In this document: in pieces, positions 2,760 to 20,629 of the stretch
How positions within the stretch are numbered: the stretch's first letter is position 1
Layout: each line of letters begins with the position of its first letter
Source of the DNA: a virus
Direction: 5' to 3' (one strand)
Virus record (IMG/VR): IMGVR_UViG_3300044630_005584
Coordinates: 1-20,629 of that record
Length of the DNA stretch: 20,629 nt
Made by a program: the position numbers and the translations under genes
The notes under the pieces: model-generated
Databases searched by the model: none
What the model saw: only the letters and a program-made list of their open reading frames with translations
Told to the model about the DNA's origin: nothing

Positions 2760-3533
2760 ATGAAAGTACCAGAGATTGGCACAGTTAATATGAGTACTTT
2801 GCCAATACTTTTAAATGGGGGATTGGCAAGATCAAATTTATATGAAGTGTCGATAAAACCACCTTCTAAAGAATTTAGTGATTTTTTGAAGACTGGAACT
2901 CAATATGGTCAAATTATTTTTGACTCTGATTTTGGAAATACATTAGGTTTATTGTGTTCTGAAGCATCTCTTCCAACTTCTTCATATGCAACTGCTGAAG
3001 TAAAAGATAATTATATGGGAGTTGCTCAAGAATTTGCTCATACTAGAATTAATACTGATATTGATTTTACTTTTTATATTGATAGGCAATATAAAGTTTT
3101 AGGATTTTTTGAGGCATGGATGGACTATATTTCTGGTGGTAGTCAAGCAACTCAACAACAAGGTAATGGAGAACCATCTGTTGCTTATTATAGAAGATTT
3201 AATTATCCAAAATTTTATAAAACTGATAGCATTTTTATAAAGAAGTTTGAAAGAGATTTTGCAGCATCTGGTGCAACTAATGTTTCTTTTCAATTAGTAA
3301 ATGCTTTTCCAAAATCTGTCACAGCAATACCAGTTGCTTATGGAGAAGCAGAAATTATGAAAATTACTGTTACGATGAATTATGATAGATATATTATGAG
3401 AAGAGAATATGGAAAAACAGTTGTTACTCCAGGTTATGTTACACCTCAAGAATATAATGGAGTAACCTATAACTTTGGTGGTGTTGATCAAGTTTTTGGT
3501 AATACTCCAGGATTTGATGCTGATATTGCTTAA
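2760..3533 (+). CDS. 54: Tail-tube-fold protein, probable gp54 baseplate tube initiator
   Basis: The 257-aa protein looks like a member of the T4 tail-tube family (gp19, gp48, gp54). Near the N-terminus LARSNLYEVSI resembles the first tube strand of gp19 (FARPNLFQVEI). In the middle, TDIDFTFYIDRQYKVLGFFE is followed by the helix AWMDYISGG, like the DPLVISF...MQDWVNS segment of gp54. Near the end, MKITVTMNYDRYIM matches the closing strand (FDVTFAYRVM in gp54). gp54 sits on gp48 and nucleates tube polymerisation, and the neighbouring gp48 and gp26 favour gp54 over the main tube protein. T4 gp54 is about 320 aa, so this is shorter. A divergent gp19-like tube protein remains possible. It starts 33 bp from a CTAAATA box, with a little A-rich leader and no clear Shine-Dalgarno. 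Confidence 0.65.
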   Translation: MKVPEIGTVNMSTLPILLNGGLARSNLYEVSIKPPSKEFSDFLKTGTQYGQIIFDSDFGNTLGLLCSEASLPTSSYATAEVKDNYMGVAQEFAHTRINTDIDFTFYIDRQYKVLGFFEAWMDYISGGSQATQQQGNGEPSVAYYRRFNYPKFYKTDSIFIKKFERDFAASGATNVSFQLVNAFPKSVTAIPVAYGEAEIMKITVTMNYDRYIMRREYGKTVVTPGYVTPQEYNGVTYNFGGVDQVFGNTPGFDADIA

Positions 3534-3568: not shown

Positions 3569-4291
3569 ATGCCTTTACCTAAAATTAATACTCCAACTTA
3601 TGAGTTGGAAATTCCTTCGACTGGAAAAAAAATAAGATACAGACCTTTTCTAGTTCGGGAAGAAAAAATTCTTATTATGGCATTAGAGTCTGAAGATATG
3701 AAACAGATAACTAATGCGATTGTTCAAATCTTAACAGAATGCATTCTTACGAAAGGAGTTAAAATTGCAGATCTTGCAACTTTTGATATTGAATATATTT
3801 TCTTAAACGTTAGAGCAAAATCAGTTGGAGAAACTGTTGAAGTTAATGTAATTTGCCCAGATGATGGGGAAACTCAAGTTAAGATGGAAATTGGTATTGA
3901 TGAAATTAAAGTTCAAAAAGATCCAGAGCATGTTCAAATTGTTAGATTAGATGATGAACTTTCCATGAAGATGAAGTATCCATCATTAGAACAATTTGTT
4001 GAAAATAACTTTGAATATAATAGTGATAATAATGATGTTGACAAATCTTTGGACATGATCGTTTCTTGTATTGATATGATTTACAATCAAGAAGAGTCTT
4101 GGTCTGCTGCAGATTGTACCAAAAAAGAGATAAAAGAATTTGTAGATCAGATGAATACCAAGCAGTTGAAAGAAATTGAAACTTTCTTTACAACGATGCC
4201 TAAATTATCTCACAAAATTGAAGTTACAAATCCCAAAACAAAAGTTGAAAGTGAAGTAGTTCTGGAGGGTCTTGCCAGTTTTTTCACTTGA
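3569..4291 (+). CDS. 26: gp26 baseplate hub assembly protein (tail assembly chaperone family)
   Basis: This 240-aa protein is recognisable as T4 gp26 by its N-terminal half. KYETTIPS-type residues appear as TYELEIPSTGKKIRYRPFLV, then EEKILIMALES and a helix ending in LTECIL, then DIEYIFLNVRAKSVGE. In T4 this family is needed for hub assembly and lies just before gene 51 and the tape measure region, the position occupied in other phages by the tail assembly chaperone pair. The C-terminal half (residues 150-240) is acidic and helical. The reading frame ends at TGA 4289-4291 straight after a T TTT TTC heptamer (4279-4285). A -1 slip there would extend it by 66 residues into the overlapping frame, for about 305 aa. 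T4 gp26 is about 208 aa. Confidence 0.88.
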   Translation: MPLPKINTPTYELEIPSTGKKIRYRPFLVREEKILIMALESEDMKQITNAIVQILTECILTKGVKIADLATFDIEYIFLNVRAKSVGETVEVNVICPDDGETQVKMEIGIDEIKVQKDPEHVQIVRLDDELSMKMKYPSLEQFVENNFEYNSDNNDVDKSLDMIVSCIDMIYNQEESWSAADCTKKEIKEFVDQMNTKQLKEIETFFTTMPKLSHKIEVTNPKTKVESEVVLEGLASFFT

Positions 4292-4305
4292 GTATGGCTC
4301 ATACT
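4264..4305 (+). promoter_or_regulatory. Probable programmed -1 ribosomal frameshift cassette at the end of gp26
   Basis: Three elements are lined up. A Shine-Dalgarno-like GGAGGG is at 4264-4269 inside the gp26 codons. A canonical slippery heptamer T TTT TTC, phased as codons AGT TTT TTC, is at 4279-4285, nine bases later. A six-base-pair hairpin AGTATG-GCT-CATACT lies at 4291-4305, after a five-base spacer. The gp26 TGA is one codon past the heptamer, and the -1 frame is open to 4485. This layout resembles bacterial dnaX and the lambda G/GT tail chaperone frameshift. The stem is short, so efficiency cannot be judged from sequence. Confidence 0.68.
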
Positions 4306-4485
4306 AGCCTTGAGTCATATTTCAAAATTAATTTTGCTATGATGCAACACCATAAATATTCTTTGACAGAGCTAGAAAATATGATGCCTTGGGAAAGAGA
4401 AGTTTATGTTTCTCTTTTACAACAACATGTTGAAGAAGAAAACTTAAAGGCACAGCAGCAAAGTGGAAATCGATCAGGTTTATAA
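4294..4485 (+). CDS. 51: gp51-like hub assembly ORF, possibly made mainly as a gp26 -1 frameshift extension
   Basis: The frame reads MAHTSLESYFKINFAMMQHH, then KYSLTELENMMPWEREVYVS and a Gln/Glu-rich tail, 63 aa from the ATG at 4294. The hydrophobic helix followed by H-K-Y-S-L-x-x-L-E-x-M-x-P-W-E-R is the type of signature I associate with T4 gp51 and the downstream half of tail assembly chaperones. The T4 gene order (26, 51, hub) supports this. The ORF is far shorter than T4 gp51 (about 249 aa). There is no Shine-Dalgarno close to the ATG: the only purine-rich site is 24 nt upstream and better placed to stimulate frameshifting. Independent initiation at 4294 and fusion to gp26 are both possible. 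It overlaps the next gene by 23 nt. Confidence 0.62.
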   Translation: MAHTSLESYFKINFAMMQHHKYSLTELENMMPWEREVYVSLLQQHVEEENLKAQQQSGNRSGL

Positions 4486-7084
4486 GGCACCATCTATTCC
4501 CAAATTAAATCGTAGAAACATTAAGTCTACGTTAATTAGTGGTGCCATTAAACCTGGTGTTGAATTAAAGAAAACAAAATTTAGTTTTATTAAACCTTTA
4601 GCAAAGTTAATTCCAGACTCTTTAATTCCAGATAAATCTGATGAGAATAAAAGAGAAGGTTTAGTAAAATATATACAGTCTAATTTTGGGATACAGAAAG
4701 TATTAGAACAATCTAATAAACTGTTATCTCAAATCAAAGAACAATTATCTTTAGATTTTCTTTCTAAAATTAGAGAAGAGAAAAAAGATCTAGAAGAGTC
4801 TAAAAAAAGAATTGCGGCAGAAAAGGTTAAAGATAAAGAAAAAAAATTAGAGAGTGGTGGTGTAAGAGGATTTTTAGGCAAAACTTTTAGTACACTTCTT
4901 GCTCCAGCAAAAAGTATTTTTCAGAAGTTAATTGATTTCTTTTCAATAATACTGACTGGAATTTTAGTTAATACTGCTTTTAAGTGGTTACAAAAACCAG
5001 AAAATCAAGAAAAACTTAAGCAGTTCTTCCAGTTTTTAAAAGATTATTGGAAAGAACTTTTAGTAGTTTTTGGTGCAATTAAGTTATTAGGATTAGTTAG
5101 AAAAGTTTTAAAGGTTGCGAATGCACTTAAAAGTCTTATAGATTTCTTCAAGAAAAAACCACCACAATTACCTTGTAAGTGCCCACCATCTCCTGCACAA
5201 AATGTAGATGATTGCTTACCTCTTAAGGATTGTATTGATAGTTTAGTCAAAAATCCTAGAAGAAGTGGACCGATGCTTGAGGCTCTTGCGAGTCTTATTA
5301 TATCAACTACTGCATTTGAAGGTATTAGGAGATTATTAAATCAAAAACCACAACAAACTCCAATACCAGCGCCGACACCATTATTACCAATATCACCAAC
5401 AACTCCAACTCCAAAACCAGCACAAAATCCAATAGTTCAACCATTACCTACACCATCCCCACCAGCACCTTCAGCACCCCCAGCACAAACACCAACAACT
5501 GCTGCTAATAAAAGAGTTCCTTTTACAAGAACACCTACTACAACACCTACTAAAACACCCACTTCTTCTGGAGCATTTAGATCTGGAATTCCTATGGGAA
5601 CTCGCTCTGGTTTATTTTCTATTCTTGGTGGATTTGCGCTTGGGCAGGTAGAACAAGAAAGAGTAAAAAATAAAGTATCACAATTACAGCAGTTAAAAAC
5701 ATCAAATCCTAAAGAGTATAAAAGGCAGTTAAATGAATTAAGAAATGAAGCTAAATTTCAAAAATATTTAATCAACCCAATTGCTGAAATTACTAGTGCT
5801 CCTTTTATTCCAACTGCAAAAATACTCAAAGCACTTGGTGAATTAAAAGAGGATGAAATACCAAAAAGTATTAATATTTTTAAAAAGGATCAAGATCAAT
5901 TAACTCCGGATTTAAACAAAGATGGGACTCCAGTAATATCTCAATCTAATGCATCTAAAGAAAATATAGAACGGATTATTAGGGAAAAAAATCCAACTTT
6001 TAATCAAAAACAAATAGTTAATGCCACAACAACTTCTTTAAGATTAATACAAAAAGGAGTTGCAGTTACCCAAGCTATTATTCAAGCAACTGCGGCAGTA
6101 GCATCTACTGCTGTTGAGCGTTCAAAAGGTGGAACAATCCCAAAAATTTCACTGTTTGCTGGAGGTGGAACTGTTGGAGGACCTGGTGCATTAGGAGTTG
6201 ATAGTGTTCCTGCTGCAATAGCATCTGGGGCAGGAAAACTTGCTAACTATGGAAAGGCACTACTCGCACCTGGTGAAGAAGTTATTAATACTCGTGCATC
6301 TATGCTTTTCAGACCGTTACTGAAAGACATTAATGATAATGCTGCTAGAATGTGGCAGAGTTTTACAAATGCGGTAAGAAGACAAGATGCTGTTAATTCA
6401 ATTAAGAGTGGTATAATTGAAGAACTGAATAAAATTTTAGAAGAATTCCGAACATTATTGGATAAAGAGTCCACTGAAATAAAAAGAAAAAAAAGAACTG
6501 GTGGAGCAACTGGAGGTGGAGTTTTTAGACCATCTCTTGGTGGAAGTAATCCAATTCAAAAAATTGATAAGGGAGTTGGTGGATTAATTAAAGATGTTGG
6601 TGGGATGATTGGTAGAAACCAAGGAAAACAAACTAGAATTCCTGGAGGTGGATTTGTTGGAGAGCAACTCGGGAGAAATGAAGCAGAAAGCAGATATGAA
6701 GACTTTAAAAATTCAATTAGAGAACTTATGAATAGATCTAGATCTAATATATCTAGACCAAATATTAATGTTCAAAATCCAATAAATTTGACACAAAATA
6801 TAGTTAATCCGGAAATTGAAAAAACTATACTAGGTAATCAGAATGTGTACGTTATTCCTGTACCAATTTCTAGAGAAACATCTAAATTGTCTGGATCTAA
6901 ATCTTCTGGTGGAAATATCAGCGTCATAAATCTTCCACCAAAAACACTTAATTTAAATAAACCTAAATCTAAACCATTACCCTCATCACCTTCAGGAACA
7001 ACAGTTCCTTCTATTTCTCCTATTGACCAAAGTAATGATTATGTGTTCACAACGCCTTCCATGTACGGTATTCTAGTAGTTTAG
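4463..7084 (+). CDS. Large virion protein, candidate tail tape measure (873 aa)
   Basis: No certain homolog is recognised, but several features fit a tape measure or tail-lumen protein. The N-terminus (1-135) is basic and helical, with a coiled-coil-like Lys/Glu stretch at about 95-130. Hydrophobic segments follow at about 155-180 (FFSIILTGILV) and 195-215 (LLVVFGAIKLLGLV). Cysteines at 238, 240, 251 and 257 form CxC-x10-C-x5-C. Residues about 293-375 are Pro/Thr-rich. At about 560-620 is a Gly-rich stretch with GGTVGG, VDSVPAA and LLAPGEEVINTRA, which resembles the GG-V-G-G-x-D-x-V-P-A...PGE-V motif common in tape measure proteins. It directly follows the gp26/gp51 chaperone pair, the usual tape measure position. 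The start is GTG at 4463, since no in-frame ATG occurs in the N-terminal region. T4 gp29 is about 590 aa. Confidence 0.62.
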   Translation: MEIDQVYKAPSIPKLNRRNIKSTLISGAIKPGVELKKTKFSFIKPLAKLIPDSLIPDKSDENKREGLVKYIQSNFGIQKVLEQSNKLLSQIKEQLSLDFLSKIREEKKDLEESKKRIAAEKVKDKEKKLESGGVRGFLGKTFSTLLAPAKSIFQKLIDFFSIILTGILVNTAFKWLQKPENQEKLKQFFQFLKDYWKELLVVFGAIKLLGLVRKVLKVANALKSLIDFFKKKPPQLPCKCPPSPAQNVDDCLPLKDCIDSLVKNPRRSGPMLEALASLIISTTAFEGIRRLLNQKPQQTPIPAPTPLLPISPTTPTPKPAQNPIVQPLPTPSPPAPSAPPAQTPTTAANKRVPFTRTPTTTPTKTPTSSGAFRSGIPMGTRSGLFSILGGFALGQVEQERVKNKVSQLQQLKTSNPKEYKRQLNELRNEAKFQKYLINPIAEITSAPFIPTAKILKALGELKEDEIPKSINIFKKDQDQLTPDLNKDGTPVISQSNASKENIERIIREKNPTFNQKQIVNATTTSLRLIQKGVAVTQAIIQATAAVASTAVERSKGGTIPKISLFAGGGTVGGPGALGVDSVPAAIASGAGKLANYGKALLAPGEEVINTRASMLFRPLLKDINDNAARMWQSFTNAVRRQDAVNSIKSGIIEELNKILEEFRTLLDKESTEIKRKKRTGGATGGGVFRPSLGGSNPIQKIDKGVGGLIKDVGGMIGRNQGKQTRIPGGGFVGEQLGRNEAESRYEDFKNSIRELMNRSRSNISRPNINVQNPINLTQNIVNPEIEKTILGNQNVYVIPVPISRETSKLSGSKSSGGNISVINLPPKTLNLNKPKSKPLPSSPSGTTVPSISPIDQSNDYVFTTPSMYGILVV
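5338..5570 (+). repeat. Pro/Thr/Ala-rich low-complexity segment within the tape measure candidate
   Basis: Codons for Pro, Thr, Ala and Ser dominate (runs of CCA, ACA and GCA), encoding PTP, PAP and SPP-type motifs at residues about 293-370. It looks like a flexible linker between the hydrophobic N-terminal module and the C-terminal half. No exact long DNA repeat is visible. Confidence 0.7.
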
Positions 7085-7090
7085 TAGATC

Positions 7091-9886
7091 ATGAAACTAA
7101 CAGAAACAAAACCAACAGAAAAATCATCAAAAAAATTAAAGTTAAGTATCTTTAACATTAAGAGTCTTTTGGTTTTTAATAAAAAGAAATTAGATAAAAT
7201 TAAAAAAGAAAAGAAAAAGTTTTCTTTATTTCAAATGAAGAAAAAGAAAGTTGAAGAGAAAGAAAATAAGATTGAGTCTCCACGCACTGTTGGGTCTACA
7301 TTAAAGAATATTGGCAAAGGTTTATTGGCAAAACCATTAAGTATTATTGACAAACTAAAAGAATTTTTTGGTATAATACTTTTAGGTGTTCTAGTTAATA
7401 ATTTACCTACTATAGTTAAAAAACTTCAAGATGTATTAGGTCAAATAAAGAAATTTTTTGATGATAATCCATGGATTGGTAAAGTTATAACATTTACTTT
7501 TGATATTATTGCCAAAGGAATGATGGGTATTTTGGATTTAACCAAAATTTTGATGCCTGTAATTGGTGGTTCATTTAAGTTTGCTCTTGATACAATTAAA
7601 ACTGCTGGAAAAGAAATTGGAAAAGCAATATCTATATTTGACCAATTAGATGCTGGTATTAGCGCAGTAATGAATGCTTTTGGATATAAACCACCAGCAA
7701 AAGCAGCACAGTCATATGCAAAAAGTAAAGGAAAATATTACTCAAGCACTACTGGAAAAACTTATGCAAATTATAAAAGTGCATTAAAAGACCCTAAAGT
7801 AAAGCAAGGTGCTCAACAACAAGCAACGCAGAAATCAAAAAAAATACGCCAAGTTCCAACAGCATCTGGAGGATCTTATAATCCTAATACTGGTTATACA
7901 TATAATCCAAATTTTAAAGATCCTGCACAGGCAGTTGGTGTTTTAGCACCAAAAGGTGGGGTAATGGGAACTATGATACCTGGTCAAAAAGATACTTGGA
8001 GAGAGTATGGACCAGGAGAAAATAAAAATATCTATAAACAAAATGTGCAGAGATATAGCACTGTAAATCAAGCACAAAAAGTACAAAAACTTTCTATTGG
8101 TGGAACAGTTAGAAACTTCTTTGGTGGAATGTTCGGATCTAGAAGAGGACTGGGAAATATACCACCACAAGAAGGAACTGGAAGAGGTGGTCCATCTGAT
8201 ATTAGAATGGCAACTAAAGATAGTGGACAATCTTATACAAGTCCTTATGCATCACCAGCAGGAACTGCCAAAGGAAGAAAGGCAAGAGAAACTGTAAATT
8301 ACTTTAAATTCTTTGAAAATAATGTTAAAAATGAAGAACGTAATTTAGTTGGCGAAGAAAAAAATCTTACCATGTTTAGTGAGTTCATGAAGAGTTATAG
8401 CAATCTTCTTGATATAAGAAAGAAATATGGTGATACAGATTTAAGTGTACCTCCAGGACCAGGAGGAACTTCTGGATTACCTGATGAAGCAATTTCAGTA
8501 AATGAAAATGAAGTAATTGGTAAAGTAGGAAGTACAGGACAGTCGACAGGACCTCATATACATTTGGAGGCTATGAGTTCTGATAAAAAAATTCCATTAT
8601 CATTAAGAAAAAATATATTTGTAAGTGGCAAAAGTTTAACTTCCAATAACTGGCCAATAAGTTCTCCTGTTGGTAATAGAATACACCCAATAACAGGAAA
8701 ACTAAAATTTCATGCTGGAGAAGATTGGCCTGCACCGTCTAATTCACAAATTACTTTACGTGGAGGAGTTAAATTTGTAAAATATATTCCAGAGGGATCT
8801 GATCCTAGATATTCTGGATATGGCAATGTCAGTGTTATACAGGATACTGATGGAAAACAATATTTTATGGGTCACTTGAATGCTGGTCCAACTAATCTTT
8901 CTGCATTAGTGCAGAGACAGCAACAACAATTGTCTAAAAAAATTCCTGGTGGAACTAATGCAGAAAAAGTTTGGAATTTCTTTAAAAGTAAAAAATATGA
9001 TGGAAAACCTTTAAGTGATTTTGCTGTTGCAGGTATTATGGGAAATGCCCAACAAGAAAGTGGATTTAATCCAACAATAGCACATTCCATGAAAGGAAAT
9101 GGTGGTAAGTTTATTGGAATATTCCAGTGGGGAAATAAAGGAAATGGTGATAGATGGGGAAATTTAAAGAAGTGGGCAAAGAATAATGGAGATTTAGATC
9201 CAGAAAGTATTGATACTCAATTAAAATTTACATGGGTTGAATTGGGTGGATCTTATGGTCATGTTCTCCCTAAACTACAAGCAGCAAGAACCCCAGAAGA
9301 AGCAGCAAAAGTTTGGTATGATGATTATGAAGCAGCATCACATGGTCTTTCTAATAGACAAAATTATGCAAAAGGATTTTACACAAGATATAAAGGTAAA
9401 GGCGGACAAAGTTCTGCTCCAGTTGCAGCACCATTAACAAAAACTCAACAACTTGAAAAAAATATTGTTGAAACTATGGTTGAAAAATATGGTACTAGAA
9501 GTATGACAGTTGGGGATAAAAATATTACTGTTGAAAAATCTGGAGATAAAAATATTTTAAAAATAACAACTGGTGGTATATTTGGTATAGGTGCTAGACA
9601 ATTGCAGTTAAATGAGACTTTATTAAATAATCTTTTATTTGAAATAAGAAAAAAAGCACAATCAGTCCAACCAGTTCAAACTCCACCACCATCGACCGAA
9701 GGTGCTGGAGCAAGAGGATATGGTGGAGCAAATGCAAGTAATGATTTAGTTATCGTAAAAGAAACATTAGTTGCCGTTGTTGAGAGTCCACCCGAAGTAA
9801 TTACTAATACGGTAAATAATTATGTTCCAATTTTGATTTCTCAAAATTCTTCTGCTTCAAGAAGTTTAAGATCTACACTTTCATAA
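7091..9886 (+). CDS. Hub-associated enzyme: permuted M23 peptidase plus tail lysozyme (931 aa)
   Basis: The N-terminus is extremely Lys-rich (1-70), then a hydrophobic segment at about 90-110 (FFGIILLGVLVNNLP) resembles the matching part of the preceding gene. At about 465-600 are all M23/LytM metallopeptidase motifs but in permuted order: VGSTGQSTGPHIHLE (His489, His491) comes first. Next comes NRIHPITG with HAGED (His541, Asp545), then GYGNVSVI and FMGHLN (His595). Residues about 623-770 fit a phage tail lysozyme domain: KVWNFFKSK, AGIMGNAQQESGF with probable catalytic Glu656, IGIFQWG, then helices ending in YTRYKG. Both domains would cut peptidoglycan during injection, taking the role the lysozyme domain of gp5 has in T4. 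The C-terminus (780-931) is unassigned. It lies just upstream of gp27-like and gp5-OB. It could alternatively be a second tape-measure-like protein. Confidence 0.78.
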   Translation: MKLTETKPTEKSSKKLKLSIFNIKSLLVFNKKKLDKIKKEKKKFSLFQMKKKKVEEKENKIESPRTVGSTLKNIGKGLLAKPLSIIDKLKEFFGIILLGVLVNNLPTIVKKLQDVLGQIKKFFDDNPWIGKVITFTFDIIAKGMMGILDLTKILMPVIGGSFKFALDTIKTAGKEIGKAISIFDQLDAGISAVMNAFGYKPPAKAAQSYAKSKGKYYSSTTGKTYANYKSALKDPKVKQGAQQQATQKSKKIRQVPTASGGSYNPNTGYTYNPNFKDPAQAVGVLAPKGGVMGTMIPGQKDTWREYGPGENKNIYKQNVQRYSTVNQAQKVQKLSIGGTVRNFFGGMFGSRRGLGNIPPQEGTGRGGPSDIRMATKDSGQSYTSPYASPAGTAKGRKARETVNYFKFFENNVKNEERNLVGEEKNLTMFSEFMKSYSNLLDIRKKYGDTDLSVPPGPGGTSGLPDEAISVNENEVIGKVGSTGQSTGPHIHLEAMSSDKKIPLSLRKNIFVSGKSLTSNNWPISSPVGNRIHPITGKLKFHAGEDWPAPSNSQITLRGGVKFVKYIPEGSDPRYSGYGNVSVIQDTDGKQYFMGHLNAGPTNLSALVQRQQQQLSKKIPGGTNAEKVWNFFKSKKYDGKPLSDFAVAGIMGNAQQESGFNPTIAHSMKGNGGKFIGIFQWGNKGNGDRWGNLKKWAKNNGDLDPESIDTQLKFTWVELGGSYGHVLPKLQAARTPEEAAKVWYDDYEAASHGLSNRQNYAKGFYTRYKGKGGQSSAPVAAPLTKTQQLEKNIVETMVEKYGTRSMTVGDKNITVEKSGDKNILKITTGGIFGIGARQLQLNETLLNNLLFEIRKKAQSVQPVQTPPPSTEGAGARGYGGANASNDLVIVKETLVAVVESPPEVITNTVNNYVPILISQNSSASRSLRSTLS

Positions 9887-15032: not shown

Positions 15033-15985
15033 TGCCAGCACATAATATAGATTCTCTTTCAACTTCATATTTGGAAGTTTTTAACCCAACTCTTGGAGCA
15101 GCTTTAAATGTTCCGAGTTCCTTTATACCTCCAGGATCAGCAAACATTTATCAGTGTTTTATTGGATCTGCTTATAACAAAGTTGTAAATGCTTCATTAG
15201 TTGTTGGGGCAAATGCTACAAATCCACAAGCACTTCAAGTAACTGGTCAAAGCAGACTTCAAGGAAGAGTGGAAATATGGGGAGATCTTATAGTTCAAGG
15301 AATTTCTGCTCCTACTCCAGGATCTGGTCTTACAAAAACTCCAGGATCAACAGAAATTGGTGGAAAAGATTTTAGAGTTACTGCACTTTCAACAGAATTT
15401 ACAAGTACAAAATTTGCAGTAAATTCTTCATCTACAGTTAGTCTTTATTGTTCAAAAGGAGTTGATATTTCTGGGGGAAAATTTATAGTTGGTTGCCCTA
15501 AAATTAATCTTAATGGCACAGTAACTGTTCCTATGGCAGGAGATGTTGGTGCAGCAATTCTTGAATTGAGAGCTTCTAAAAAAACTTTCGATGTTACCCA
15601 TCCAAATAAACCTGGGTATAGATTAAGACATGCTTGTGTGGAAGGACCAGAAGCAGCAGTTTACGTTCGTGGTGTGTTAAATAATACTAATAATATTGAA
15701 CTTCCAGATTACTGGAATGGTTTTATTGATCCAGAAACAATTACTGTAAATCTTACTCAAATTGGACACAGTCAAGATTTAATTGTTGAAAAAATAGAAT
15801 GGGGTAAAAAAATTATTATTAAATCTGGAAACGGTACAACTATCAATTGTTATTATCAAGTTTGGGCAGATCGTTTAGGTGAAAAATTAATTGTCGAATA
15901 TCAAGGTGAAACTCCAGATGATTATCCAGGTGAAAATTCAACATATTCAATCGCAGGTTGGACATACGATAGAAGAAACTCATGA
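15032..15985 (+). CDS. Fibre/spike-associated virion protein with conserved marine-phage C-terminal domain (317 aa)
   Basis: The N-terminal half (about 60-185) alternates short strands, with ALQVTGQSRLQGRVEIWGDL and IVQGISAP, then KFAVNSSSTVSLYCSKGVD and ISGGKFIVGCPK, which suggests a beta-helical or beta-solenoid shaft. The C-terminal part (about 190-317) reads KTFDVTHPNKPGYRLRHACV, EGPEAAVYVRG, IELPDYWNGFIDPETITVN and LTQIGHSQDLIVEKIEW. I recall this domain at the end of fibre-like proteins of many marine phages, where it may be a cap or folding domain; its exact function is unknown to me. Its TGA overlaps the ATG of the next gene (ATGA), so both are probably co-translated. Confidence 0.75.
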   Translation: MPAHNIDSLSTSYLEVFNPTLGAALNVPSSFIPPGSANIYQCFIGSAYNKVVNASLVVGANATNPQALQVTGQSRLQGRVEIWGDLIVQGISAPTPGSGLTKTPGSTEIGGKDFRVTALSTEFTSTKFAVNSSSTVSLYCSKGVDISGGKFIVGCPKINLNGTVTVPMAGDVGAAILELRASKKTFDVTHPNKPGYRLRHACVEGPEAAVYVRGVLNNTNNIELPDYWNGFIDPETITVNLTQIGHSQDLIVEKIEWGKKIIIKSGNGTTINCYYQVWADRLGEKLIVEYQGETPDDYPGENSTYSIAGWTYDRRNS

Positions 15986-18900
15986 CCAAAATTAGAATCT
16001 ATCATACCGATAGACCGCCCGAAGATCTATCAGATTTAGAAATTGATAATCTTTATGTCGGTACTGGTGTTACCATATATGGTAGTGTTGGTATTGTTAG
16101 TGCAGTTTCTTTCTATGGTGATGGATCTAATTTATCAAATGTTGGTATAGAAGTAAGTGAAATCGATACTTTAAATGGTAATGCAATATTAAATGTTGTC
16201 GAAAATGTAAAGGCAATTCGTTTTGATACAGATTCTGGATTTGATGTAACAGATTTAGGTGATGGTGCTGTACAAATTGCATTAAATAGTACATTTAAAT
16301 ATTGGGAAATTGAAGGACAACCAACACTTATTGCAGAAGGTCTTGATACTGTAAAAATTGTAGCTGGTGTTGGAATTGCAATTACAACTCAAAATATTGA
16401 AGATGATAAAAGAATAACGATTACTGGAACTCTTGGGGCACAAGGTGTTCAGGGTACTATAAGTAATTTCCAAGGAACTCAAGGTCAACAAGGAACTCAA
16501 GGTACTCAAGGTCAACAAGGAACTCAAGGTACTCAAGGTCAACAAGGTACTCAAGGACAGCAAGGCATTCAAGGAGTATTGGGAAATTTCCAAGGAACTC
16601 AAGGAATACAGGGAAGACAAGGTACTCAAGGTCTACAAGGTAATCAAGGATTACAAGGTAATCAGGGTATTCAAGGATTTCAAGGTACTCAGGGTGTAAT
16701 ATCAAATTTCCAAGGTGCTCAAGGAATACAAGGAAGACAAGGCACTCAAGGCACCGGAGTTCAGGGAAATCAAGGAATTATTGGTGAGAAAGGAAATAGT
16801 GGGGATAAAGGAGGAGTTTTTTATAGATTTATTTCCAATACAGACACAACAGATCCTGGTAGTGGACAATTTAAATATAACAATTCGAACATATCTTTAG
16901 TAAATAAAATTTACATCGATGACGTAGATTTTCTTGGCAATAATCAACAATCTTGGTTTCCAACTTGGGTTCAAGAAGGAATAGGATATTTGTATGTTAT
17001 TCAATCTTCGGCATCCGGAACTGTTGTTAATATTTGGAAAATTATCAATGCAACTAGATATAGTTTTATTTCTACTTATTGGGAAATAACAGTTACATAT
17101 GTTTCTGGAATTCTTCCTTCAAACAATACTACATTTTCTTTAAATTTTTCCTCTTCAGGTATTCAAGGACTTCAAGGAACATTAAGTAATTTCCAAGGCA
17201 CTCAAGGACTTCAAGGTCTACAAGGATTGCAAGGTATTCAAGGAGTTCAAGGCAATCAAGGAGTTCAAGGTAATCAAGGAGTTCAAGGTAGGCAAGGTAC
17301 ACAGGGAGGACAGGGAATTCAAGGTGTAATTGGGAATTTCCAAGGCACTCAAGGATTACAAGGACTTCAAGGTACTCAAGGGAGACAAGGACTTCAAGGA
17401 GTTCAAGGCAATCAAGGAGTTCAAGGTCCATTAAGTAATTTCCAAGGCACTCAAGGATTACAAGGATTTCAAGGAGTTCAAGGCAATCAAGGAGTTCAAG
17501 GTCCATTAAGTAATTTCCAAGGTGCTCAAGGAATTCAAGGACTTCAAGGTCCACAAGGAAGACAAGGAATTCAAGGATCTCAAGGTACTCAAGGTAATCA
17601 AGGACTTCAAGGTGTAATTGGTAATTTCCAAGGTACTCAAGGATTGCAAGGACTTCAAGGTCTACAAGGAGGACAGGGAGTTCAAGGTCCATTAAGTAAT
17701 TTTCAAGGAATACAAGGAACTCAAGGACTTCAAGGTCCACCAGGAAGACAAGGAGTTCAAGGTCCATTAAGTAATTTCCAAGGTACTCAAGGAGTTCAAG
17801 GCAATCAAGGACTTCAAGGTCCACAAGGAAGACAAGGAATTCAAGGCAACCAAGGTACTCAAGGAGTTCAAGGCAATCAAGGACTTCAAGGTCCACAAGG
17901 AAGACAAGGAATTCAAGGCAACCAAGGTACTCAAGGAGTTCAAGGACTTCAAGGTAATCAAGGACTACAGGGTAATCAAGGATTGCAAGGTATTCAAGGA
18001 GTTCAAGGCAATCAAGGAGTTCAAGGCAATCAAGGACTTCAAGGACTTCAAGGTAATCAAGGACTTCAAGGCAACCAAGGTACTCAAGGACTTCAAGGTA
18101 ATCAAGGATTACAGGGTAATCAAGGACTTCAAGGCAACCAAGGTACTCAAGGACTTCAAGGACTTCAAGGTAATCAAGGACTTCAAGGACTTCAAGGTAA
18201 TCAAGGACTTCAAGGCAACCAAGGTACTCAAGGACTTCAAGGACTTCAAGGCAACCAAGGTACTCAAGGATTACAAGGTCTTCAAGGCAACCAAGGTACT
18301 CAAGGATTGCAGGGTAATCAAGGTCTTCAAGGCAACCAAGGTACTCAAGGATTACAAGGTCTTCAAGGAGTTCAAGGCACTCAAGGATTACAAGGATCTT
18401 TAAGTAATTTCCAAGGTACTCAAGGATTACAAGGTCTTCAAGGAGTTCAAGGCAATCAAGGAGTTCAAGGTCCATTAAGTAATTTCCAAGGCACTCAAGG
18501 ATTACAAGGACTTCAAGGTACTCAAGGGAGACAAGGACTTCAAGGTACTCAAGGTACTCAAGGAAGACAAGGTACTCAAGGTCTACAAGGTAATCAAGGA
18601 TTACAAGGATCTTTAAGTAATTTCCAAGGCACTCAAGGATTACAAGGTCCTCAAGGTACTCAAGGAAGACAAGGATTGCAGGGTGCTCAAGGTACTCAAG
18701 GTCTTCAAGGTTTTCAAGGTACTCAAGGTCTTCAAGGTACTCAAGGTCTTCAAGGTAATCAGGGCACTCAAGGATTGCAGGGAGCACAAGGTAGATCTGC
18801 ATTTGATGTATTTGATGATGTTTCAAGCGATGTTATTTTTTATCCATCAATACTACCAATTACTAATGCATCAATTTCTACGGTAACAACTTCTTCAGAA

Positions 18901-20629
18901 AAATTAGTTTTTAACCCATCATCTGGGAGCATTGGAATTGGAACAAGTGTTATCACAAATACATTGACAGTTGTTGGAACTGCAACTGCTACAAATTATT
19001 ATGGTAACGGTGAAACATTAGTAGGAATTGTGACTCAAATTGTTCCAGGAATTGGAATTGATATTTTCGAATCTCAAATTCCGGGTAAAGGTAAAGTTGA
19101 AATACAAGCATATAAACCAATTGGTAGAACAATTTACGTTTCTATGACTGGAGATGATAATAATACTGGATTAGCAGAAAATTATCCAAAGAGAACTATA
19201 AAAGCAGCGGCATCAGTTGCAGTTTTTGGTGACACGATTAAAATATTCCCAGGAACTTACGTTGAAGACAATCCAATTGTTCTTGCCAAAACAGTTTCTG
19301 TGGAGGGAACGGAGCTTAGAAATTGTGTAATTACTCCTAGAAATAGAAATCAAGATATGTTCTATGTGAATAATGGTTGCCATATTACCGATGCAAGTTT
19401 CATCGGACCATCAATGACAAATGGTGCGGCAGTTGTTGCTCTTCAACCATTACTTGGTGTCGCAACTGATAGATTTTTTGATGCTTCCAGGATGATTAGA
19501 TTTAATTTGAGATATATTGCAAAAGAATCTGTTGGATTCTTAACAAGTGGATTCAGTGGATTTGCTGGTGGACATAGAGAACAAGATGCTGCAAAATTAA
19601 TCGATTCAAACTTAAACTATATTTCTGCAGAGGCAGTTGGATTCTTAACATCATCTTCTGGATATAATTTTACTTTAAACAATAGCGATTATACTAACTG
19701 TAGAGAAGATGTTGTTAGCATTATGAATGCTATTTCCTATGATTTAAAAGCAAATAGCAATCGCAAATCTATTGGTGCTGGTTATTCATACTTTAATAAT
19801 TCTGGTGGATTAATTCACATTACTGGAATTGGTGTTTCACAAGCAACTATTGCTGCTCTTGATTATGCTGCAGGAATTGCAACTCATGTTATTAATAATT
19901 TAACTCCTCCCATTTCTTATCAGGGAGTTGGAAATAGTGTATCTCAGGTTAAAAATCTTTCAGTCATTCAGGTTGAAGGTGGATGTGTGGGCGTAGGAAC
20001 AACCATTAGGCAATTGGTTGGAATTGTAACTAATATGATTGGTGCAGGAACAACATTAAATGCTCCACCAGTTAGATATGGCGTTACATTAGAAAGTCAA
20101 GACTGTGCAGACGATGTTGTAGATATTTGGAAGTGTATTATTCATGATATTACCAGAGGTGGAAATTCAAGATCTGTTGCTGCGGGTAAAGCATATTATA
20201 ATGATGATTGGAGTTTAAAAACTGGTATTCTTAAAAATCCAGAAGAAGTTAAACAGACTATATCAACTATCGATTATTCTTTTAATATTGCACGTGCAGT
20301 AATTAACAACGTTACTTGGGGAGGATATCCAGTTGGTTTAGGAACAACCGTTGTAAATGCATTTTATGATAATAATACTGGAATTACTACAATTACAGCC
20401 ATTAATCATGGTCTTATTAGAAATGATTCGGTTAAGATTATTGGATTAGAATTTTCTTGCCCATCTGGACCAACATCATTAATATATCCTACTGGATCTT
20501 TGGGATATATCTTTAACGTTAATAAAGTTGTTGGGGTGAATACATTTGAAGTTGTAGTTGGTCAATCAACTTTACCTCATACCTACGTTTCTGGGGGAAC
20601 AATTCAAAAATATACTAATTATCAGAATG
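15982..20629 (+). CDS. Collagen-like tail fibre with beta-helix C-terminal region, incomplete at window end
   Basis: The frame is open from ATG 15982 to the last base, at least 1549 codons. Residues 1-151 are beta-rich, with FYGDGSNLSNVGI as in many cyanophage fibres. Residues 152-278 are collagen-like Gly-X-Gln triplets ending in charged GEKGNSGDKGG. A globular insert follows at 279-392 (FYRFISNTDTTDPGSGQFKY, Trp-rich). A second collagen-like tract spans 393-937. The region from about 1048 has GRTIYVSMTGDDNNTG, then FGDTIKIFPGTYVEDNPIVL, typical of a parallel beta-helix. Duplicated alpha-rich segments follow at about 1230-1445. The whole suggests a trimeric fibre or tip adornment that contacts the host. 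The stop codon, and hence the C-terminal chaperone or receptor-binding tip, is outside the window. It starts inside the previous stop (ATGA). Confidence 0.85.
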   Translation, partial: MTKIRIYHTDRPPEDLSDLEIDNLYVGTGVTIYGSVGIVSAVSFYGDGSNLSNVGIEVSEIDTLNGNAILNVVENVKAIRFDTDSGFDVTDLGDGAVQIALNSTFKYWEIEGQPTLIAEGLDTVKIVAGVGIAITTQNIEDDKRITITGTLGAQGVQGTISNFQGTQGQQGTQGTQGQQGTQGTQGQQGTQGQQGIQGVLGNFQGTQGIQGRQGTQGLQGNQGLQGNQGIQGFQGTQGVISNFQGAQGIQGRQGTQGTGVQGNQGIIGEKGNSGDKGGVFYRFISNTDTTDPGSGQFKYNNSNISLVNKIYIDDVDFLGNNQQSWFPTWVQEGIGYLYVIQSSASGTVVNIWKIINATRYSFISTYWEITVTYVSGILPSNNTTFSLNFSSSGIQGLQGTLSNFQGTQGLQGLQGLQGIQGVQGNQGVQGNQGVQGRQGTQGGQGIQGVIGNFQGTQGLQGLQGTQGRQGLQGVQGNQGVQGPLSNFQGTQGLQGFQGVQGNQGVQGPLSNFQGAQGIQGLQGPQGRQGIQGSQGTQGNQGLQGVIGNFQGTQGLQGLQGLQGGQGVQGPLSNFQGIQGTQGLQGPPGRQGVQGPLSNFQGTQGVQGNQGLQGPQGRQGIQGNQGTQGVQGNQGLQGPQGRQGIQGNQGTQGVQGLQGNQGLQGNQGLQGIQGVQGNQGVQGNQGLQGLQGNQGLQGNQGTQGLQGNQGLQGNQGLQGNQGTQGLQGLQGNQGLQGLQGNQGLQGNQGTQGLQGLQGNQGTQGLQGLQGNQGTQGLQGNQGLQGNQGTQGLQGLQGVQGTQGLQGSLSNFQGTQGLQGLQGVQGNQGVQGPLSNFQGTQGLQGLQGTQGRQGLQGTQGTQGRQGTQGLQGNQGLQGSLSNFQGTQGLQGPQGTQGRQGLQGAQGTQGLQGFQGTQGLQGTQGLQGNQGTQGLQGAQGRSAFDVFDDVSSDVIFYPSILPITNASISTVTTSSEKLVFNPSSGSIGIGTSVITNTLTVVGTATATNYYGNGETLVGIVTQIVPGIGIDIFESQIPGKGKVEIQAYKPIGRTIYVSMTGDDNNTGLAENYPKRTIKAAASVAVFGDTIKIFPGTYVEDNPIVLAKTVSVEGTELRNCVITPRNRNQDMFYVNNGCHITDASFIGPSMTNGAAVVALQPLLGVATDRFFDASRMIRFNLRYIAKESVGFLTSGFSGFAGGHREQDAAKLIDSNLNYISAEAVGFLTSSSGYNFTLNNSDYTNCREDVVSIMNAISYDLKANSNRKSIGAGYSYFNNSGGLIHITGIGVSQATIAALDYAAGIATHVINNLTPPISYQGVGNSVSQVKNLSVIQVEGGCVGVGTTIRQLVGIVTNMIGAGTTLNAPPVRYGVTLESQDCADDVVDIWKCIIHDITRGGNSRSVAAGKAYYNDDWSLKTGILKNPEEVKQTISTIDYSFNIARAVINNVTWGGYPVGLGTTVVNAFYDNNTGITTITAINHGLIRNDSVKIIGLEFSCPSGPTSLIYPTGSLGYIFNVNKVVGVNTFEVVVGQSTLPHTYVSGGTIQKYTNYQN
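16435..16815 (+). repeat. First collagen-like Gly-X-Gln coding repeat
   Basis: Repeats of the 9-bp form CAA GGN NNN encode QGT, QGQ, QGI and QGL triplets for about 125 residues. They are broken by three GxxxNFQG interruptions near 16453, 16579 and 16693. The tract ends in a more classical charged sequence, GEKGNSGDK, before the globular insert. Confidence 0.92.
17158..18792 (+). repeat. Second collagen-like Gly-X-Gln coding repeat with periodic NFQG interruptions
   Basis: About 545 residues of Gly-X-Gln triplets are made from near-identical 9-bp and 27-bp DNA units, such as CAAGGACTTCAAGG and CAAGGCAACCAAGGTACT. Ten interruptions have the form G-[TVPS]-[LI]-[SG]-N-F-Q-G (near 17176, 17320, 17425, 17500, 17611, 17689, 17761, 18391, 18472 and 18609). 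Between 17780 and 18390 about 200 residues run with no interruption. Confidence 0.93.
17779..17922 (+). repeat. Perfect 72-bp tandem duplication in the collagen tract
   Basis: The 72-bp unit at 17779-17850 is repeated exactly at 17851-17922 (24 codons, eight triplets), and a third copy starts at 17923 with its first 18 bases. No synonymous differences have accumulated between the two full copies, which points to recent slippage or unequal recombination. Confidence 0.9.

Follow-up and report, generated by a model that had tools for sequence, protein, structure and literature searches.

The virus contig analyzed here, a stretch of 20,629 nucleotides (20.6 kb) referred to below as the window, carries tail genes of a T4-like cyanophage. 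Among these is a gene for gp26, which is followed in the -1 frame by a segment related to gp51. This arrangement raises the question of whether gp51 is a separate protein or the C-terminal part of a long form of gp26, produced by ribosomes that change frame at the end of the gp26 gene. The second possibility had been put forward in a first-pass annotation of the window, made from the sequence alone, in the form of a -1 frameshift cassette resembling that of dnaX.

Organization of the gp26-gp51 locus

The sequence was re-read, and GGAGGG (4264-4269) and T TTT TTC (4279-4285, in the phase of gp26) were found where the first-pass annotation had placed them. The gp26 gene ends in CTG GAG GGT CTT GCC AGT TTT TTC ACT TGA, the stop codon being located one codon beyond the slip site, as claimed, and the -1 frame remains open until TAA 4483-4485 (Table 1). 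The computed lengths were 240 residues for gp26 and 305 residues (239 + 66) for the conceptual gp26-gp51 fusion, matching the predicted values of 240 and about 305. The junction peptide of the conceptual fusion is VESEVVLEGLASFFHLSMAHTSLESYFK and the C-terminal peptide of gp26 is VESEVVLEGLASFFT. The proposed 6-bp hairpin was only partly upheld: an inverted repeat of this length exists at 4291-4305, but folding predicts a longer stem of 10 bp with a loop of 9 nt (-11.1 kcal/mol, z -2.95), which replaced it in the analysis. In addition to phrog_634, the -1 frame matched the C-terminus of phrog_150, which first suggested that in part of the gp26 family the two segments are joined in a single protein.

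Table 1. Features of the gp26-gp51 locus and its neighbors.
Feature	Position	Strand	Basis
Tail-tube-family gene upstream of gp26	2760-3533	+	PF23849, E 3e-18
gp26 gene, 0 frame, 240 aa, putative short chaperone form	3569-4291	+	PF12322 T4_baseplate, E 2e-73; phrog_150, E 4e-79
GGAGG, putative internal Shine-Dalgarno (SD)-like stimulator, 10 nt upstream from the slip site	4264-4268	+	Conserved in clusters; GAG codon bias
Slippery heptamer T TTT TTC, predicted -1 slip	4279-4285	+	Same position in 167/171 loci and 65/69 clusters; codon-level control
gp51 segment, -1 frame, 66 residues past the slip, predicted to extend the long form at its C-terminus	4285-4485	+	phrog_634 (gp51), E 3e-30; phrog_150 positions 239-280; alignment with the C-terminal part of T4-type gp51
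gp26 stop TGA, one codon past the slip site	4289-4291	+	Direct reading; relatives swap TAA/TAG/TGA
Stem-loop, putative stimulator, 4292-4301 paired with 4311-4320, 9-nt loop	4292-4320	+	Starts 6 nt downstream from the slip site; shuffle, tiling and synonymous-codon controls
873-aa ORF overlapping the 3' end of gp51, tape-measure candidate by position only	4463-7084	+	Position

The 873-aa ORF had no Pfam match and did not resemble residues 1-374 of T4 gp29; this comparison gave no support to its identification as the tape measure, for which it is a candidate by position only. At the N-terminus, this ORF and the next large one on the plus strand (7091-9886) share a hydrophobic stretch that is 33% identical over 95 columns (E 4e-5), and the second ORF also has M23 peptidase and tail lysozyme domains. 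A plus-strand ORF of 1549 codons (15982-20628), which adjoins baseplate genes and runs off the contig, is rich in collagen-like G-x-Q triplets (GNQGLQGTQG...). The minus-strand ORF of 565 codons at 17129-18826 is the mirror image of the latter and not a gene.

Conservation of the slip site and of the -1 phase

The word TTTTTTC occurs 19 times on both strands of the window for an expected number of 18.95. Its frequency, being at chance level, was dropped as evidence, and the case therefore had to rest on conservation. The comparison comprised 171 loci grouped into 69 clusters, with gp26 identity extending down to about 25%. T TTT TTC was present in phase in all 80 nearest viral contigs (gp26 identity of 78-100%) and was kept in all 80 nearest relatives of the gp26 of S-PM2 (47-100% identity). 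In the complete set, TTTTTTC was located one codon ahead of the stop codon at 167 of the 171 loci, corresponding to 65 of the 69 clusters. Conservation of the T run, suggested as a check in the first-pass annotation, was thus borne out. The four exceptions were S-H34, with T TTT TTC abutting the stop codon, phiM7, with T TTT TTT two codons ahead of it, P10VF, with T TTT TTG, and GR28A (Ackermannviridae), the only one of the four devoid of a T-TTT-TTN-type site. Sixteen further loci were recovered from bacterial or archaeal genome assemblies, mostly metagenome bins, and are probably stray phage contigs. At fifteen of them T TTT TTN precedes the stop codon by a single codon, and at the other the T run is ten codons ahead of it. 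In-phase sites whose second codon was TTC, TTT, or TTG were also found in Schizotequatrovirus, Angelvirus, Menderavirus, Otagovirus, Emdodecavirus, and Pootjesviridae, in phage SRB7757, in Vibrio phage Bakedbeans, and in Acinetobacter phage SH-Ab 15599. Some Ackermannviridae had weaker or different sites (A/G ATT TTC, G GCT TTC, C GTT TTT). A scan with the vibriophage gp26 returned nothing.

In all fetched T4-type relatives with separate frames, gp51 was in the -1 frame of gp26 and in no case in the +1 or 0 frame; the separated or differently phased frames that the first-pass annotation had suggested looking for did not occur among them. No -1 stop codon was present between the slip site and the second ORF, either in the window or in any of the fetched two-frame relatives. 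The +1 frame was rejected as a candidate: in those named relatives that were inspected, it closes shortly past the stop codon of gp26, and it does not contain the conserved domain. Aeromonas phage G2 had appeared to encode the fusion in a single piece; its DNA revealed the two-frame arrangement with T TTT TTC.

In the Kuttervirus-type Ackermannviridae, 18 of 18 gp26 homologues end in A/G ATT TTC ATY TAA and are followed by a -1 frame with a gp51-like domain, in most cases without an ATG at its start. This organization appears frameshift-like, with a different, non-canonical candidate slip site.

Translation of the gp51 frame

A separate small gp51 could be produced by termination-reinitiation (translational coupling), ribosomes terminating at TGA 4289-4291 and restarting at ATG 4294, two bases beyond the stop codon. 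This possibility is favored by the position of this ATG, by the fact that in 31 of the 69 clusters the start codon nearest downstream from the slip site is an ATG, and by the usual practice of annotators, who call gp51 as a gene of its own. However, GGAGG is 25 nt from ATG 4294, too distant to be its SD sequence, and a free gp51 would miss the first ~200 residues of T4-type gp51 (PMC3037559). In addition, the heptamer, including its wobble bases, is retained where the start codon is lost. In 13 of the 69 clusters, the -1 frame had no ATG, GTG, or TTG among its initial 16 codons, and in 5 of these 13 a -1 stop codon immediately precedes the slip site. Thus, barring a rare start codon, the gp51 domain would be translatable there only by a shift at the slip site. 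Aeromonas phages AsFcp_4 and PX29, which have identical protein sequences, and an 80%-identical relative have no ATG ahead of the conserved gp51 domain. Loss of the heptamer with retention of a gp51 gene under its own SD had been named as an observation to look for; the opposite was seen, the gp51 start being often lost while the heptamer stays. We therefore consider reinitiation improbable and favor production of the gp51 domain by a -1 shift.

Selection on the DNA of the slip site and of the flanking elements

Third codon positions carried 1.7-2.0 bits of information in the heptamer versus about 0-0.5 bits at nearby third positions, the SD position excepted. F238 was encoded by TTT in 68 of 68 clusters and F239 by TTC in 67 of 68, whereas other conserved phenylalanine columns of gp26 were mixed (TTT:TTC of 35:33 for F27, 26:42 for F206, and 48:17 for F207). 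Phe-Phe pairs located elsewhere in the same gp26 genes were encoded by TTT TTC in only 8 of 68. A T preceded the run in 68 of the 69 clusters, while the corresponding residue varied between Ser, Ala, Asn, and Asp. Wobble freezing is thus confined to the slip site, indicating that the heptamer is selected as DNA.

Upstream from the slip site, GGAGG was found in 30 of the 69 clusters and GAGG in 18 (48/69 together), AGGA in 6, and none of these motifs in 15. The glutamate codon of GGAGG was GAG in preference to GAA (44:11), versus 430:1115 in the rest of gp26 (80% versus 28% GAG; Fisher P 5e-15, the clusters not being fully independent). The other conserved glutamate columns of gp26 ranged from 10% to 62% GAG, compared with 80% for the GGAGG column. 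These results indicate that the upstream GGAGG is selected as DNA. Its conservation, another of the checks proposed initially, holds for the majority of the clusters and for the GAG codon but does not extend to the 15 clusters without an SD-like match.

Folding of the 46 nt past the slip site was more stable than that of dinucleotide shuffles (mean z of -2.8 over the 69 clusters, with 74% of the clusters below -2), and tiled windows displayed a peak only at this position (-0.9 to +0.15 in other windows). When synonymous codons of the -1 frame were shuffled so as to leave the protein unchanged, the mean z was still -2.6, versus +0.07 and -0.38 for two control stretches. The sequence of the stem differs by lineage, for instance AUGGCUCA/UGAGUCAU in the window and GUUCUAUAAUAAU/AUUAUUAUAGAAC in S-PM2. 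Thus, both putative stimulators, the SD-like GGAGG and the stem-loop, are under selection at the DNA level. They are not universal, since 15 of the 69 clusters had no SD-like match according to the criteria used and about a quarter had no strong stem. The dnaX-like layout recognized in the first-pass annotation is supported across the family; in the window, the SD lies 10 nt upstream from the heptamer and the stem-loop about 6 nt downstream.

The same fusion would result from transcriptional slippage, the RNA polymerase adding a U in the T run, and a run of six T is indeed present at the junction. Slippage by bacterial polymerases typically involves runs of 8 or more, and six T is short for these enzymes. 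Furthermore, neither the fixed codon phase nor the final C would be expected from transcriptional slippage, and the same holds for the selection on the internal SD and for the stem-loop; we regard this explanation as very improbable. Coincidence, with SFF conserved for protein reasons, genes merely overlapping in -1, and an incidental hairpin, could invoke the chance frequency of the heptamer in the window and the protein-level conservation of S/A/N/D-F-F, but it is refuted in the main by the phenylalanine codon columns and the survival of the stem-loop in the synonymous-codon control. The rarity of TTT TTC at other Phe-Phe pairs also speaks against coincidence, to which we give next to no credit.

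Relationship to gp26 and gp51 of phage T4

The hub assembly chaperones gp26 (208 aa) and gp51 (249 aa) of T4 both belong to PF12322 (E 9e-64 and 4e-52), as does the gp26 of the window, and are similar to each other (E 2e-6). Only gp51 of the T4 pair extends into the C-terminal part of phrog_150, and this C-terminal segment is present in the long form deduced for the window. The conceptual cyanophage-type fusion aligned end to end with T4-type gp51, through the junction (hhalign E 9e-16). Judging from these alignments, T4 gp51 is the same protein as the fusion, encoded in a single frame, and T4 gp26 is its short paralogue. In T4, the short and long forms are encoded by two adjacent, divergent genes, whereas the window has one locus with two frames. 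The equivalent T4 sites, TTC TTT GAG in gene 26 and GTG TTT AAG in gene 51, contain no slip site.

The gp51 of cyanophages and marine vibriophages has been described as lacking its initial ~200 residues, and no gp51 was apparent in Aeh1 (PMC3037559, 2010). The 'missing' residues would be accounted for because this part is gp26, read through the frameshift. In the large Aeromonas phages fetched (AsFcp_4 and a relative with 80% identity), the gp51 frame is retained but has no start codon close by.

In a tree, the T4-type short proteins and the T4-type long proteins each formed a group of their own, distinct from the frameshift type; the tree does not fix the root or, consequently, the order of events. 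We see about even chances that the frameshift cassette is ancestral for the whole T4-like group, with an SD and stem-loop specific to cyanophages, and that the T4 branch replaced the cassette by an inverted duplication of the locus, giving an in-frame long gp51 and a truncated short gp26 with loss of the slip site. If this scenario is correct, a recoding signal was exchanged for a gene duplication in the T4 branch.

Proposed mechanism and comparison with known frameshift systems

The locus is very probably best read as a -1 frameshift of the lambda G/GT tail-assembly-chaperone type with dnaX-like stimulators. The arrangement, its phase and conservation, the DNA-level selection on three elements, and the homology of the fusion to the single-gene gp51 of T4 are directly established. 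From these we infer slippage itself and its rate, pairing of the SD with rRNA, and the chaperone role of the products. Most ribosomes would terminate at TGA 4289-4291 and release a short tail-assembly chaperone of 240 residues. In a fraction of ribosomes, held by pairing of the upstream GGAGG with 16S rRNA and by the downstream stem-loop, the two tRNA-Phe bound to TTT-TTC would slip to TTT-TTT in the -1 frame, leading to a long form of 305 residues that combines gp26 and the gp51 domain. The two forms would be the counterparts of lambda gpG and gpGT, a chaperone set for the tape measure and the tail tube. On comparative grounds, a short conserved signal in the RNA almost certainly causes part of the ribosomes to move back by one base as they finish gp26, so that a short and a long form of the same chaperone would be produced.

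The same frameshift trick is known in other phages. The -1 frameshift of the lambda tail assembly chaperone genes G/GT was reportedly described by Xu in 2004. The window resembles lambda in having adjacent tail genes in the 0 and -1 frames, preceded by a tail tube gene and followed by large tail genes, with a slip site just ahead of the first stop codon and, by deduction in the window, a short major and a long minor product. It differs from lambda by its slip site (T TTT TTC versus G GGA AAG) and by its internal SD and stem-loop; the window proteins belong to PF12322, and no sequence link to lambda gpG was found. The tau/gamma cassette of dnaX also combines an SD-like GGAGG 10 nt upstream, a slip heptamer, and a stem-loop about 6 nt downstream. 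However, the heptamer is A AAA AAG in dnaX, in a gene for DNA polymerase III subunits tau and gamma, and T TTT TTC in the window, in a tail gene, making the latter dnaX-like but not a member of this system. The -1 product of dnaX is the shorter form, whereas the -1 frame of the window gives the longer one. According to the accessible part of the report on phage Adele (Vandenendeviridae/Andersonviridae, PMC12846349), a poly-T -1 site similarly ends a short chaperone gene and the -1 frame is open across the family. That phage differs by its GTTTTT motif and by its family, and the same part of the report contains no conserved cassette of SD and stem-loop.

For comparison with chaperone folds, an AlphaFold2 model was used (pLDDT 86.5). 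The fold search with gp26 gave no significant match, the HK97 tail assembly chaperone (2ob9) being placed at rank 4-5 (E 1.1-1.2, probability 0.35-0.72). Searching solved structures by sequence gave no match, nor did a fold search with T4-type gp51.

Previous reports and annotation of related phages

The core idea is said, in citing papers, to go back to Vladimirov et al. in 2022. According to the accessible portions of these papers, some T4-like phages do not frameshift but carry two genes, one short and the other long and fused (PMC10885494, attributing this to Vladimirov et al. 2022), and -1 signals of the poly-T kind have been recognized in the chaperone genes of T4-like phages (PMC12846349). 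Based on these portions, the core claim is probably not new, and the belief, voiced with reserve in the first-pass annotation, that no case had been described in T4-like phages is doubtful. The 2016 recoding review that describes the lambda G/GT frameshift considers G-T frameshifting to be widely conserved 'except T4' (PMC5009743). No paper on the cyanophage case or on the SD and stem-loop cassette was retrieved by a literature search in which most subscription journals were outside the scope.

Frameshifting would explain why the cyanophage 'gp51' looks like a truncated stub, and the T4 'catalyst' gp51 would become the long form of a chaperone pair. T4 and the cyanophages would also provide a natural comparison between recoding and gene duplication for setting the ratio of one protein. 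Hundreds of cyanophage records would need re-annotation with a joined CDS, which is probably missing from many public records. In those of ACG-2014d, AsFcp_4, and Aeromonas phage G2, gp51 is unannotated, probably because the frame has no usable start codon. Cyanophage-like tail contigs are filed under metagenome bins of bacteria and archaea (Flavobacteria, Euryarchaeota, and Planctomycetota), most likely through binning contamination.
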